Below are positions 7,096 through 13,145 of a DNA stretch of 32,251 bases, piece after piece. Location of the stretch: NCBI GenBank assembly GCA_947453375.1, contig CANGGT010000024.1:1-32251 (forward strand), given 5' to 3'. Origin of the DNA: Planctomycetaceae bacterium. Lineage in GTDB: Bacteria > Planctomycetota > Planctomycetia > Pirellulales > UBA1268. The position numbers and the translations under genes are program-made. The notes beneath the pieces are model-generated. The model was not told the DNA's origin and made no database searches. It was given only the letters and a program-made list of their open reading frames with translations. Numbering within the stretch: the stretch's first letter is position 1; each line of letters opens with the position of its first letter.

Positions 7096-8013
7096 TCACT
7101 CGCCGGCGAGGACGACGCGGAAGCCACCGGAGAAGTCGGTGAAGGAGGCATCGTTCTTGTTGCGATCGGCCGAGCGGCAGCGGGCCGGGTCGTAGCCCCA
7201 GCCACCGCCACGGAGGACCTTCATCGTGCCGGTTGACGGCCCCTGCGGATTCTCACCGCCGGCGAGCGCCGACTTGTACCAGTCGGAACACCACTCGTAG
7301 ACGTTGCCGTGCATGTCGCACAGGCCCCAGGGATTGGGTTTCTTGCGGCCGACCCGATGGGCGTAGGCCTCCTTGCGGTCGCTCGTGTTGCCGTAGTGCC
7401 AGGCGTGGTCGTCGAGCTTCCGCGGATCGGCGCCGAACGACCACGCGGTCTTGGTGCCGGCGCGGCAGGCATACTCCCACTCCGCCTCCGTCGGCAGCCG
7501 GTAGTGCTCCCCCTTCTCGAGCCACCCGCCGGCCCGCTCCTGGACGGTGAGCTTGCGGCAGAAGGCGACCGCGTCGTGCCAATCGACGTAGACCGCCGGG
7601 GCGTCGTCCCCCTCGACGACACAACGCTGCCCCTTCCACGGCTCGGTCTTCATCACCCCCTTCCACTGGGCCTTCGTGACGACCGTGCGGCTGATGAGGA
7701 ACGGATGCGGGATCGTGACGCGTTGCTGCGCTTCGTCCGTGCCGCGTCCCTTCTCCGTAAGTGGGCTTCCCATCGTGAAGCTGCCGGCGGGGATCGGCAC
7801 GAGCTTCATCCCCACCGAGTTTGCCTCAGGCCGACCGGCGACGGTGCGGCGTGCCGGCTTGGCCGCAGCGGGCTTCTTCACGCTGCCTTTCGCTCGCGGC
7901 GCGGCCTTCTTGGCCGCGAGCGATCCGGGGGCCTTGGCCTTGGTGCCGGGTGCCTTCGGCTTCGCGGTCTTGCCCGTCGACGTTCGGGCTGAGGTCGTTT
8001 TCTTCAGGGCCAT
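7096..8013 (-). CDS. FGE/SUMF1-like domain protein with Lys/Ala/Pro-rich histone-like N-terminal tail
   Basis: A 305-residue protein in two parts. Residues 1-62 are a basic low-complexity tail with AKKAAPRAKGSVKKPAAAKP-type repeats, like the C-terminal domain of histone H1 and bacterial H1-like proteins. Residues 63-304 form a formylglycine-generating-enzyme (SUMF1) domain: GMKLVPIPAGSFTMGSP, VDWHDAVAFCRKLT, YRLPTEAEWEYACRAGT, GLCDMHGNVYEWCSDWY and VLRGGGWGYDPARCRSADR. In true aerobic FGE two cysteines in the block after RGG bind copper. Here only Cys279 fits, and the position five residues earlier is Tyr, so sulfatase-maturing activity is doubtful. There is no signal peptide, so the protein is cytoplasmic and its tail could contact DNA or RNA. 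It lies 76 nt downstream of the channel-like gene. Confidence 0.88.
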   Translation of the reverse strand: MALKKTTSARTSTGKTAKPKAPGTKAKAPGSLAAKKAAPRAKGSVKKPAAAKPARRTVAGRPEANSVGMKLVPIPAGSFTMGSPLTEKGRGTDEAQQRVTIPHPFLISRTVVTKAQWKGVMKTEPWKGQRCVVEGDDAPAVYVDWHDAVAFCRKLTVQERAGGWLEKGEHYRLPTEAEWEYACRAGTKTAWSFGADPRKLDDHAWHYGNTSDRKEAYAHRVGRKKPNPWGLCDMHGNVYEWCSDWYKSALAGGENPQGPSTGTMKVLRGGGWGYDPARCRSADRNKNDASFTDFSGGFRVVLAGE

Positions 8014-8089
8014 CGGGGGTGCTCCGGAAGGGTGGGGTTCCGGATCATTTCACCTGTTCCCTTGGCGACGCACAACCGGCGTGGCCGGA

Positions 8090-8465: not shown

Positions 8466-9128
8466 TCAGGCGGCCGACCGGCTCTGGGCCTTGTAGAGAT
8501 ACGGGTTCATCGTCGGATCGTTGTACATCTTCATCATCCGGAACACACGCAGCGGCCGCTGGCCCTGGAAGATCTCCGTGAGGAGACGGTCGATCGCGTC
8601 GATGAGGTGGCCGCGCTGGGCGTCGAGCACCGCCATCCGGGCCGCCGCCTTCTCGCGGTGCTCCTGGGTGGCATCGGCACGGTCGAGCTGCTCACGCATG
8701 TGAAACCGGCGGAGCTCGAGGATCGAGAGCCGGTCGATCGCCGAGCCGGGTGTCTCGGTGGCCGCGGGGGTGCCGGCAGAGGCCTGGATGCCGCGGGCGG
8801 CGAGCTCCGTGACGAGCCAGTCGTCGACCTTCTCGATGGCGTCGTTCCGCGCCTGGTTGAAGCGATCGATGTTCCGCTTCACCTCGGCGATCCGCGCGTC
8901 GGTCACCTCGGGGGAGCGGGCGATGTCCTCTTCGTGCCAGAGCTGGAAGTTGAACTTGTGGAGATCGCAGATCCGCCCTTCGAGCTCGGTGGCGGTGTGT
9001 CCCGGATCGACGACATGCCACTCGGCCACGAGCCGCTCGAGGAGCGAGTCGATCTCGGCGGCGGGGAGCGGCGGGCTGGAGGGATCGGCGGGGCGGCGGC
9101 AGGCGCACTGCGAGGAGCAGGTGGTCAT
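8466..9128 (-). CDS. DUF4254 domain protein
   Basis: A 220-residue mostly helical cytoplasmic protein matching DUF4254, a family of unknown function seen mainly in Planctomycetota and Bacteroidota. Characteristic stretches are LHKFNFQLWHEEDIARSP, IAEVKRNIDRFNQARNDAIE and the C-terminal TEIFQGQRPLRVFRMMKMYN before DPTMNPYLY. The ATG at 9128 is supported by GGAG about nine bases upstream (CCGGAGACTCCCACG). The long open frame continuing upstream is the shadow of the ketosynthase gene. The N-terminus carries an unusual Cys-rich stretch, MTTCSSQCACRRP, with three cysteines that could bind metal. It starts 41 nt after the ketosynthase stop and is probably the fourth gene of the ACP/ketosynthase operon. 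Confidence 0.88.
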   Translation of the reverse strand: MTTCSSQCACRRPADPSSPPLPAAEIDSLLERLVAEWHVVDPGHTATELEGRICDLHKFNFQLWHEEDIARSPEVTDARIAEVKRNIDRFNQARNDAIEKVDDWLVTELAARGIQASAGTPAATETPGSAIDRLSILELRRFHMREQLDRADATQEHREKAAARMAVLDAQRGHLIDAIDRLLTEIFQGQRPLRVFRMMKMYNDPTMNPYLYKAQSRSAA

Positions 9129-9169
9129 CGTGGGAGTCTCCGGGGAAATGGCAGGGAAATGGTGAGGGA

Positions 9170-10414
9170 TCAGGCGGCGCGGCGGATGACGAGGCAGAGG
9201 TTCGCCCCACCGAAGCCGAAGGAATTGCTGGCGGTGACGGTGACGGGATGCGGCCGGGCGACAAGGGGGACATGGTCGAGCCGGCAGCGCTCGTCGGGGG
9301 AATCGAGGTTGAGCGTCGGGGGGATCGCCTGGCGATCGATCGCGGCCAGGCAGGCGATCGCCTCGAAGGCGGCCGCACCGCTGACGAGGTGGCCCGACAT
9401 GCTCTTGGTCGAGCTCGCCGGGACATGGTCGGTGGCGGCGCCGAGCGCCAGACGGATCGCCGCCGCCTCGGCAACGTCGCCGACGGGAGTGCCGGCGGCG
9501 TGGGCGTTGACGTAGTCGAGGTCGGCAGGCTGCACGCCAGCGCTTTGCAGCGCCAGATGAATGGCCCGAGCGGCCTCGGTCGGATCGTCGCTGGGGATCA
9601 CCATGTGCGCCGCATCCCCGCTCATCCCCACCCCGGCCAGTTCCCCCCGGACCCGCGCGCCGCGGGCGTCGGCGTGGCGGCGCGATTCGAGGACGAGCAC
9701 CGCGCCCCCCTCCCCCATGACGAAGCCGTCGCGGTCGCGGTCGAAGGGGCGCGAGGCGCGGACGGGATCGTCGCTGCGTCGCGACAGGGCACGGAGGTTG
9801 TAGAAGGCGGCGAAGCCGGTCGGGCTGAGGATGTCGCAGCCGCCGGCTAGGCAGACATCGACGAGACCGGCGGCGATCCAGCGGCGGGCGAGAGCCAGCG
9901 CGTAGCCGCTCGAGGCACACGCTGCCGCGACGGTCACCGCCGGCCCCTCGATCCCGAGCCGGGCGGCGATCCGGTGGACGAGGCTCGTGGGCCTGTCAGG
10001 AGCGAAGACCTGCCGTCCGCCGGCGAGGAAATCGGCCTCCCAGCTCTTGAGGTGCTCGGCGCCGATGCCGAGGACGAGGCCGACCCGCGCCCCGGCGACC
10101 GGGCCGCTGCCGTGCAGGTCACCCAGCCCGGCGTCGGCCTTGGCCGCGCTCGAGGCCGCGAGGCAGATCTGGCCGAGCCGGTCGAAGGCGTCGTTCGAGT
10201 CGTTGGAGTCGGCTGCCACCGTCGGGATCGCGGCGACCGGCGCGGCGAATTGCCGGGCTTCCCGGCTGAACCCGGCGCCGTCGATCTCCACGATGCCCGA
10301 TCGCCCGGCGAGGAGCGCGTCGGCGATGGAGTCGAAATTGTTGCCGAGGGGGGTGACGGCACCGATCCCGGTGATCACGACGGCTCGGTCGGCGGAAAGG
10401 GGGGCGCGGTTCAT
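9170..10414 (-). CDS. Beta-ketoacyl-ACP synthase (FabF/KS-alpha type), catalytically intact
   Basis: A 414-residue condensing enzyme of the thiolase fold. It would catalyse decarboxylative Claisen condensation of an acyl chain with malonyl-ACP. The complete catalytic triad is visible: Cys166 in TVAAACASSGYALALARRW, His305 in YVNAHAAGTPVGD, and His342 in STKSMSGHLVSGAA, with the usual Lys337. The glycine-rich end NSFGFGGANLCLVIR is also standard. It opens with VVITGIGAVTPLGNN. The start at 10414 overlaps the stop of the upstream ketosynthase-like gene as ATGA, so the two proteins are probably translationally coupled and made in equal amounts, as in KS-alpha/KS-beta heterodimers. The housekeeping fabF usually lies with other fab genes. 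The partner here argues for a specialised chain, such as a polyene or polyketide. Confidence 0.93.
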   Translation of the reverse strand: MNRAPLSADRAVVITGIGAVTPLGNNFDSIADALLAGRSGIVEIDGAGFSREARQFAAPVAAIPTVAADSNDSNDAFDRLGQICLAASSAAKADAGLGDLHGSGPVAGARVGLVLGIGAEHLKSWEADFLAGGRQVFAPDRPTSLVHRIAARLGIEGPAVTVAAACASSGYALALARRWIAAGLVDVCLAGGCDILSPTGFAAFYNLRALSRRSDDPVRASRPFDRDRDGFVMGEGGAVLVLESRRHADARGARVRGELAGVGMSGDAAHMVIPSDDPTEAARAIHLALQSAGVQPADLDYVNAHAAGTPVGDVAEAAAIRLALGAATDHVPASSTKSMSGHLVSGAAAFEAIACLAAIDRQAIPPTLNLDSPDERCRLDHVPLVARPHPVTVTASNSFGFGGANLCLVIRRAA

Positions 10415-11265
10415 GCGGCGTCCCTCCTCCGCTCCCGCGCACCGAGCCGCGCTGCAGCGGTCTCGAGATGCACCATCGCTCCCCAGCCGAGGCGAAACGA
10501 CCAGCCACAACCGTCGTCGTCTCGGTCCCGATCCCCTCCGCCAGCGTGGGCGGCCCGGTCGAGAAACGCTGCCAGTTCGGCGAGGGAAGGCTGGCCGGTG
10601 CGGAAGGTCGGCGACGCGTTGTCGATCGCCGCGATGCTCGGCACGGTACGGAGCGAAAGCTCGAGTCTTCCGGCGGCAGCCCGATCGAGGGCCAGTGCCA
10701 CCCCCCGGCAGACCGCCTCGGCGGGGAGGTCGCCACGGTCGTCGAGCGTCGGCTCGTCGTCCCAGGCGGTGAGCACGAGCCAGCATCCCTCAACCCCCGG
10801 CTCGTCGAGGAGCGACAGCGCCGTGATGAACGCCTCGGAGAGCGCCTCGGGGCCACCGCCGACGCCGACGTTGGGCCCGTGGATCCGCAGGCCGACGCTC
10901 ACGGCGCTGGCCACCGCGTGGAGCGAGCACTGCGGGACAACATGCGGCGAGACCGTCACCGGCCCACCGTCACGGAGACTGACGAGCGTCCGGGCACTCG
11001 CCGGCCGGCCGGCGCTGCACGGCGCGGCGACGATGGCGAAGCGATCGGTCGCTCCGGCCTGGGGATTGCCCGGACGGGGACCGAACGCAGCCATCGCTTC
11101 CTGCACCGCGCGGATGCCGACGACCGTGTGCTCGTCGGCGTGGCGGAGGAATCGTGGCGGCAGCGGCGGCACTCCCGGCACGGCCGCCTCGCGCAATGCC
11201 GCCACTCCCGCCGCACGGCAGGTGACGTTCGCATGGACCGCGACGGGGCAGGAGAAGTGGGGCAT
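10411..11265 (-). CDS. Ketosynthase-like protein without the active-site cysteine (chain-length-factor-like)
   Basis: A 284-residue protein resembling the N-terminal half of beta-ketoacyl synthases, close to the Ketoacyl-synt_2 type found beside ketosynthases in aryl-polyene and related clusters. The recognisable segment is SPHVVPQCSLHAVASAVSVG, then RIHGPNVGVGGGPEALSEAF (about 128-147). In a catalytic KS the nucleophilic Cys would lie here, but the stretch reads GVGGGPEAL, so it cannot load a chain. WLVLTAWDDEP follows the usual core strand order. It is shorter than a complete KS and has no second-half His motifs. It probably pairs with the intact KS downstream, with which it overlaps by ATGA. 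The gene starts 33 nt after the ACP stop. Confidence 0.82.
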   Translation of the reverse strand: MPHFSCPVAVHANVTCRAAGVAALREAAVPGVPPLPPRFLRHADEHTVVGIRAVQEAMAAFGPRPGNPQAGATDRFAIVAAPCSAGRPASARTLVSLRDGGPVTVSPHVVPQCSLHAVASAVSVGLRIHGPNVGVGGGPEALSEAFITALSLLDEPGVEGCWLVLTAWDDEPTLDDRGDLPAEAVCRGVALALDRAAAGRLELSLRTVPSIAAIDNASPTFRTGQPSLAELAAFLDRAAHAGGGDRDRDDDGCGWSFRLGWGAMVHLETAAARLGARERRRDAA

Positions 11266-11298
11266 CGAGAGTGCTCGGTGACCGTGCTGGCCGGGGGC

Positions 11299-11565
11299 TC
11301 AGGCCGCCTTGCGGACCGACTTGGCGGCGATCTTCGTCTCGAGGACGTTGAGCAGGTCGCCGACCGACTGGATGCCGTCGAGGAGTTCGCTCTCGATCTG
11401 GATGCCGAAATGGCTCTCGATATGGAGAACGAGGCCGGCCATGTCGAGCGAGTCGAGGTTGAGGCCCTCGCGGAGCGTGGTCGATTCCTCGACGGCGGGG
11501 TAGGTCTCCCCCGTCTCCTTCTCGAGCAGCTCGAGGACGACCGCCGACAACTGCGTGCGCTCCAT
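11299..11565 (-). CDS. Acyl carrier protein
   Basis: An 88-residue phosphopantetheine-binding carrier protein. The attachment site is Ser39 in GLNLDSLDMAGLVLHIE, and the flanking pattern (FGIQIESELLDGIQSVGDLLNVLE) is the helix II-III region of type II ACPs. The ATG at 11565 is chosen because AGGAG lies about ten nucleotides upstream and ACPs are normally 75-90 residues. The very long frame running upstream is a shadow of the UDP-sugar gene. It is the first gene of a minus-strand operon leading into the ketosynthase-like, ketosynthase and DUF4254 genes. Its basic tail (TKIAAKSVRKAA) is unlike the acidic end of housekeeping AcpP, fitting a dedicated carrier for the neighbouring synthases. Confidence 0.92.
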   Translation of the reverse strand: MERTQLSAVVLELLEKETGETYPAVEESTTLREGLNLDSLDMAGLVLHIESHFGIQIESELLDGIQSVGDLLNVLETKIAAKSVRKAA

Positions 11566-11715
11566 GGGGATGGGCTCCTGGGTGTCCGGGCCGGCGCCCT
11601 TGGGCGACGAGTCACCGAACTGTGGGGGTATGGGGGCCTCGAGGCTCCGGTATGCTCCGCCTGTGCCGATGCCCGTGGGGTGTCGGCCGGATGCGAAGGG
11701 GGGGGAAGGTAGCGA

Positions 11716-12177
11716 ATGACCGACGCTCGACGAAGCCCAATTCCGCCCCCGCCCGATGCCCTTCCCGGGCCGTGGCAGCGGGTTTTCGACCTCCTGGCGG
11801 CGGCCTACGCCTGCGTCCTCGTCTACGCGACGCACCATCCGCGGCCGGGGGAACTCGTCGGGCCCGATGCCCCGGGCGACAAGACGCTCCACACCATCGC
11901 CTACACCCTCCTCGGGGGTGCGGTGGCGGCGGCCTTCGCCTCCCGCGGCGGATGGGGCTGGCGATCGGCCGCGGCCCTCTTCGTGCCGCTCGCTCTCTTT
12001 GCGGCAGCCGACGAGATCACCCAGCCGCTGTTCGGGAGATTTGCCGACACGCTCGACTGGGCCTTCGACGAACTGGGGCTCGTCGCCGGGATCGGGGCGG
12101 TGACGGTGGCTGCCATGCTCCTCAGCCCGATCTTCACCCGGAGGGTGGCGCGGCGGGGGGAGTCGACCGCTCAGTAG
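11716..12177 (+). CDS. VanZ-like integral membrane protein
   Basis: A 153-residue protein with four predicted membrane helices (about 24-44, 58-77, 81-99 and 118-137). The VanZ-type signature is [20 protein letters not shown] followed by [20 protein letters not shown]. In this family a conserved Asp/Glu-rich pair around the third helix, here DE and DxxD, sits next to the membrane. VanZ gives low-level teicoplanin resistance in enterococci, but most family members, including this type, have no known role. It is divergent from the ACP operon across 150 nt and convergent with the epimerase gene; the two stop codons overlap within TCAGTAG at 12171-12177. Confidence 0.85.
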
Positions 12178-13145
12178 TTCGGCGTCGGCGGACGGTAGTC
12201 GGCGATGTTCACCGTCCGGAACCACCCAATCGTCCGCTCGAGACCTTCGCGGAGGGGGATCGTCGGCTCCCAGCCGAGCCGAGCGCGCGCGAGCGTGATG
12301 TCGGGGCGGCGGCGCTCGGGATCGTCGACCGGCAGGGGACGGTGGACGATCTCCGACGACGATCCACAGAGCTGCACCGTCAGTTCGGCCAACTCGCGGA
12401 TCGTGAACTCGCCAGGATTGCCGATGTTCACCGGGCCGACGAAGTCGTCCGAGGCGGCCATCATCCGCATCATCCCGTCGATGAGGTCGTCGCGGTAGCA
12501 GAAGCTGCGGGTCTGGTCGCCCGAGCCGAAGATCGTGATCGGTTCGCCGGCGATCGCCTGACGGATGAAGTTGCTCACCACCCGGCCGTCGTAGGGATTC
12601 ATCCGTGGGCCGTAGGTGTTGAAGATTCGCACGATCCGAACGTTGAGCCGATGGGCGCGGTGGTAATCCATGAACAGCGTCTCGGCGGCCCGCTTCCCTT
12701 CGTCGTAGCAGGCCCGGGGGCCGATCGGATTGACTGCGCCGCGGTAGCTCTCGGGCTGCGGATGGATTTCCGGATCGCCGTAGACTTCGCTCGTCGAAGC
12801 CTGGAGGACCTTCGCCCGGCAACGTTTCGCCATCCCGAGGACGTTGATCGCCCCGATCACGCTCGTTTTCATCGTCTTGATCGGGTTGAATTGGTAATGC
12901 CCCGGCGCCGCCGGGCAGGCGAGGTTGTAGATCTCGTCCACCTCGAGCCACAGCGGCTGGACGATGTCGTGGCGGAGGAGCTCGAAGTTCGGCTGCGCGA
13001 GGAGATGGGCGACGTTCCCCTTCTGGCTCGTGAAGAAGTTGTCGACGCAGATCACGTCGTGCCCCTGGGCCACCAGCCGCTCGCAGAGGTGACTGCCGAG
13101 GAAGCCGGCGCCGCCGGTGACGAGGATCCGCTTGAGGGAAGGCAT
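12171..13145 (-). CDS. UDP-glucuronate decarboxylase-like NAD-dependent epimerase/dehydratase
   Basis: A 324-residue short-chain dehydrogenase of the extended family. It shows the NAD-binding motif [10 protein letters not shown] (11-20), [31 protein letters not shown] (residues 75-94, the UXS signature), STSEVYGDP, and catalytic Tyr147/Lys151 in YDEGK. Next come the substrate region [19 protein letters not shown] and [19 protein letters not shown]. These segments match UDP-xylose synthase, which converts UDP-glucuronate to UDP-xylose for surface polysaccharide. MPSLKR at 13145 is the natural start because the nucleotide-binding strand begins at once; a longer frame to 13202 is possible. It is complete and not clearly in an operon. 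Confidence 0.92.

Follow-up and report, generated by a model that had tools for sequence, protein, structure and literature searches.

What does a domain of the formylglycine-generating enzyme (FGE) type do behind a histone-H1-like tail and with no signal peptide? The question is raised by a gene on the minus strand of a 32,251-nucleotide stretch of DNA from a Planctomycetaceae bacterium (the whole of this stretch is called the window here); its parts are located in Table 1. Orthologues of the encoded protein are present in 17 other genomes with 59–91% identity. A mis-called start as the source of the tail is ruled out, since the start-context comparison showed that the GGAG core and the ATG are kept in orthologues across the genus, and since Met69, the possible internal start, is a Val in one orthologue (L099), which favors the upstream start.

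Table 1. Position of the tailed gene, its start signal, its two parts and the residues discussed in the text (coordinates of the window).
Feature	Position	Strand	Basis
Tailed FGE-fold protein gene, 305 aa	7096..8013	-	Single open frame, ATG at 8013
GGAG, probable Shine-Dalgarno	8022..8025	-	8 nt ahead of ATG, read from sequence
K/A/P-rich basic tail, residues 1-62, predicted disordered	7828..8013	-	Composition, pLDDT, orthologue charge
FGE-type C-type-lectin-fold domain, residues 63-305	7099..7827	-	PF03781, pLDDT, Foldseek
C-terminal ligand-face segment, residues 266-301	7111..7218	-	Nearly invariant in tailed clade; entropy, alignment
Gly271, at human FGE Ser333 position	7201..7203	-	G in 13/13 tailed rows, S in 4/4 FGE rows
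Tyr274, at human FGE Cys336 position	7192..7194	-	Y in 13/13 tailed rows, C in 4/4 FGE rows
Cys279, nominally Cys341 column by sequence alignment	7177..7179	-	Family-wide cysteine beside 3-residue deletion

The tail had been described as Lys/Ala/Pro-rich and H1-like, and its composition bears this out: residues 1–62 comprise 13 Lys, 5 Arg and no Asp or Glu, with K, A and P together accounting for 36 of the 62. Lysine makes up 21% of the tail vs 1.4% of 11 neighboring ORFs of the window (5,476 aa), and against the make-up of those ORFs the probabilities of at least 13 Lys and of at least 36 K/A/P residues are 5e-12 and 9e-10, respectively. No other 60-residue stretch with at least 11 Lys was found among window ORFs of at least 80 aa, and a search of the organism's own genome gave no close match to the tail (nearest E = 0.08). 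A drift toward GC-rich codons (A/P/R) was ruled out as the origin of the segment because the enriched residue, lysine, is not encoded by GC-rich codons. In an AlphaFold2 model built from a 78-row alignment, the first 60 residues have pLDDT values of 56–68 and are devoid of secondary structure. Across all 18 orthologues the tail keeps a net charge of +12 to +21 over a length of 48–84 residues; in six of them, belonging to two other genera, it is richer in Arg and always 48 residues long. The pN/pS ratio among 11 genomes of the genus is 0.62 for the tail and 0.20 for the domain, by which measure the tail is under a loose yet discernible constraint, the pattern that a disordered basic segment should show. 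It is K/A/P-rich, disordered in the model and strongly basic, the three properties taken here to define an H1-like basic tail.

Lys/Ala/Pro repeats with AKKA/AAKK motifs bind DNA in the mycobacterial proteins HupB and HbhA (PMC10665949). Composition is the only guide to DNA binding by the present tail; it suggests DNA as the likeliest single partner, and polyphosphate, RNA or the ribosome would fit it equally well. The tail might thus bind polyphosphate or ribosomal RNA and not DNA, making the protein a granule- or ribosome-associated factor: the KPAA-tailed, H1-like DNA-binding protein AlgP associates with polyphosphate granules (PMC9239181) and AKKA repeats are also found in the ribosomal protein RplV (PMC10665949), although the sequence separates none of these ligands, and we consider this reading improbable. 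As for location, the tailed protein shows no hydrophobic signal-like stretch, its highest 15-residue Kyte-Doolittle mean being 0.9 compared to 2.1–2.6 in the nearest untailed relatives, in agreement with the signal peptide having been called absent. This absence is the reason for which a cytoplasmic, polyanion-tethered protein is proposed below. Counting against it, signal peptides are present in the nearest relatives that lack the tail, which places the family usually outside the cytoplasm, and the tail, whose sequence is under loose constraint, could instead aid solubility or make contact with ribosomes or membranes.

The body of the protein belongs to Pfam family PF03781 (residues 71–301, 160.9 bits with respect to a cut-off of 23.3), and residues 61–305 were modeled at about 97 pLDDT (90–99 per block) in the same AlphaFold2 run. 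A Foldseek search of the PDB placed PvdO (5hha, E 1.3e-21) at the top, followed by TvpA (2y3c) and then by true FGEs, with a probability of 1.00 to each of them; by sequence, TvpA is the best PDB match. None of the narrower families was recognized: the NCBIfam equivalog for PvdO, a dihydropyoverdine dehydrogenase, gave 115.6 bits against a cut-off of 500, EgtB gave 46.3 against 360, OvoA 21.8 against 400, and the SenA cut-off was missed widely.

The structural match to PvdO raises the possibility that the domain, like PvdO, serves a small-molecule pathway as a tailoring enzyme, with the tail only positioning it. In the organism's own genus the gene has a MacB/HlyD exporter on one flank, and the opposite flank carries a small ORF together with ORFs for DUF4254, a ketoacyl synthase and a PP-binding carrier protein, an arrangement that is syntenic in the six genus genomes with enough flank to be read, and the ketoacyl synthase and PP-binding domains of these ORFs would suit such a pathway. 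However, none of these neighbors is present near the orthologues of two other genera (L120–L123), so the function of the tailed protein is independent of them as neighbors, and the PvdO score lies far below its cut-off; a tailoring enzyme is accordingly an unlikely reading in our estimate. Beyond the genus, no conserved neighbor pointing to a nucleic-acid process was found either, which counts against tethering to nucleic acid. In the window, the DUF4254, ketoacyl synthase and PP-binding ORFs adjoin the tailed gene at 8466–12951 on the minus strand and possibly form a small fatty-acid or polyketide-like cluster. In two relatives within the genus (L119:6529-7438 and L127:8214-9122), a cassette resembling by eye a PIN-domain toxin with a small partner lies just past the tailed gene, whose final ~23 codons recur at the far side of the cassette, as if its insertion had regenerated the 3' end of the gene; no integrase was seen in the cassette.

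The catalytic triad of human FGE is formed by Ser333, Cys336 and Cys341 (PMC6328139), and the preliminary description had one of the two copper-binding cysteines missing. The alignment does place Tyr274 at the first position and Cys279 at the second, and it additionally shows that the triad Ser is lost (Gly271); Cys279, however, is no relic of a copper site. All three MAFFT modes put a 3-residue deletion, relative to FGEs, just past this residue. Of 61 non-FGE paralogues, 45 have a Cys in its column, and as a family-wide cysteine it was rejected as evidence of a retained copper ligand or a half-kept site. In TaqVP, a related short-loop protein, Cys341 was reported to be without a close structural equivalent (PMC6328139). 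An alignment restoring both catalytic cysteines, which had been named beforehand as a result that would overturn the interpretation, was not obtained in any mode. On the other hand, a lack of the copper cysteines is the rule across this very large paralogue family and is not unusual in itself.

The genome also encodes a separate FGE-type protein (L001) with both cysteines in the motif GGSFLCTDQYC, conserved across the family, together with 18 sulfatase matches; the window genes tested included no sulfatase. Because the triad residues are lost, a separate two-cysteine FGE exists and those window genes include no sulfatase, the suggested role other than sulfatase maturation has good support, and by its alignment the tailed domain is not a sulfatase-maturing FGE. 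The presence of both an inactive-looking paralogue and a two-cysteine FGE in the same genomes also recalls SUMF2/pFGE, which binds and antagonizes SUMF1; pFGE has no formylglycine activity and lowers that of FGE (PMC13199485). It is nevertheless very improbable that the tailed protein regulates the true FGE while being catalytically dead itself, since in the tree it stands well apart from the FGE clade and since the export of L001 is suggested by a hydrophobic segment at its N-terminus, which the tailed protein does not have.

In proteins of this fold the ligand face is formed by the C-terminal segment (PMC6328139). In the tailed clade the mean column entropy of residues 266–301 is 0.20 bits vs 2.20 in the paralogues, and that of residues 273–296 is 0.27 vs 2.80 bits; Tyr207, Arg278, Asp283, Lys286, Phe294 and Gly296 are fixed or nearly so in the clade and vary freely elsewhere. 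The residues making up the invariant face include Tyr274, Arg278, Cys279, Asp283, Lys286, Asp293 and Phe294. Since the face is nearly frozen, the protein would be expected to have one fixed ligand or substrate. The opposite reading, a target of a diversity-generating retroelement (DGR), is suggested by TvpA being the best PDB sequence match and by the paralogues varying in the same C-terminal segment. It was rejected for the genome as assembled (91.8% complete) because no match to a reverse transcriptase (PF00078) was found in it; the reverse transcriptase tested from a relative in the genus (L131) is a group II intron maturase, and the segment that should be hypervariable among close relatives of a DGR variable protein is nearly invariant across the clade. 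The probability left to a DGR target is negligible.

The fusion of tail and domain, for which a search of other genomes had been recommended, is restricted in its distribution. Among 72 genomes of the family, 18 tailed orthologues were found, in 12 of 12 genomes of the organism's own genus (g1), in 4 of 4 of genus g11 and in 2 of the g4 genomes. Homologues with a similar tail therefore exist, and their absence, the other result named beforehand as overturning the interpretation, did not come about. A comparable tail is absent from ~100 further FGE-domain ORFs of GTDB genomes, and on reading the sequences of the other relatives whose match reached the tail region no basic tail was seen. A sample of 294 genomes of the phylum contained no equally close homologue; the only three other matches at E <= 1e-65 start at residue 61 or later. 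Among the matches listed, the only untailed ones below E 1e-85 are two paralogues of one genome (G012). Maximum-likelihood analysis united the tailed sequences in a single clade with 100/100 support, and the tailed architecture has a single origin; the nearest sequences are planctomycete paralogues, among them L104–L106 with signal-peptide-like N-termini. Among the tailed genes L100 to L103, the one from the g11 genome G035 clusters with its counterpart in the g4 genome G014 and not with the other g11 sequences, and most g4 genomes lack the gene; this grouping and the patchy g4 distribution indicate a probable transfer within the family. The nearest non-tailed row of the tree (L107) has a caspase-like N-terminal region, by eye, ahead of its FGE-type domain. 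Additionally, G012 (genus g2 of the same family; e.g., L104 and L181) has 31 matches to the protein in a genome of 4.3 Mb, several of them in tandem and, among those read, several with signal-peptide-like N-termini, making up a large lectin-fold paralogue family; that genome, too, yielded no reverse transcriptase.

Taken together, the protein has a two-part anatomy in which both parts are conserved, and we give an even chance to the reading that this FGE-fold protein stays in the cytoplasm, tethered to a polyanion, and has a single fixed ligand or substrate. The body, an FGE-type C-type-lectin fold that lost its formylglycine triad, would recognize that ligand or substrate through a fixed, strongly conserved face, acting either as a binding domain (as TvpA) or as an enzyme of another chemistry (as PvdO). 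The polybasic, disordered N-terminal tail would anchor this body to a polyanion inside the cell, for which nucleic acid (DNA of the nucleoid, or RNA) is the likeliest candidate. The nucleoid, or a comparable site rich in polyanions, would then be where the protein acts on its ligand or senses it, with the ordinary FGE elsewhere in the genome presumably maturing the sulfatases. A bolder and doubtful version, though a little less so than a granule or ribosome factor, is a new class of nucleoid-tethered FGE-fold proteins, in which a lectin-fold enzyme or sensor left the cell surface for the chromosome when its signal peptide was exchanged for an H1-like tail, and acts there on one fixed ligand.

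The fusion of a basic tail to an FGE fold is a new architecture of known parts, confined to one planctomycete family, and the open-licence literature yielded no paper describing a comparable tail on a protein with an FGE domain. Should the tail indeed bind nucleic acid, this family would have brought to its nucleoid a fold otherwise familiar from the maturation of sulfatases, from secreted ligand-binding proteins and from the oxidation of metabolites. The case also serves as a warning that the many planctomycete FGE-domain paralogues should not be annotated as sulfatase activators, the two-cysteine FGE of this genome being a different gene.

Among known systems, SUMF1/FGE shares the fold and the Pfam family (PF03781) with the tailed protein, in which, unlike SUMF1/FGE, Ser333 and Cys336 are replaced and 3 residues are deleted beside Cys341. 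SUMF2/pFGE is likewise an FGE paralogue with no active site, but it lies on a separate branch, has no tail and resides in the eukaryotic ER. PvdO of P. aeruginosa (5hha) has the same FGE fold lacking the FGE cysteine pair (31% identity over 258 aligned columns); it differs by having no basic tail and by taking part in pyoverdine synthesis, and its NCBIfam cut-off is not reached by the tailed protein. TvpA and other FGE-type C-type-lectin variable proteins, the closest PDB match by sequence, build their ligand face from the same C-terminal segment, which is diversified in them and frozen in the tailed protein, whose genome has no retroelement. Finally, HupB, HbhA, AlgP and the chlamydial Hc2 likewise possess a Lys/Ala/Pro-rich, disordered basic tail of loose sequence; in the present protein the tail stands at the N-terminus and is fused to an FGE fold, a combination of which no other example was found.
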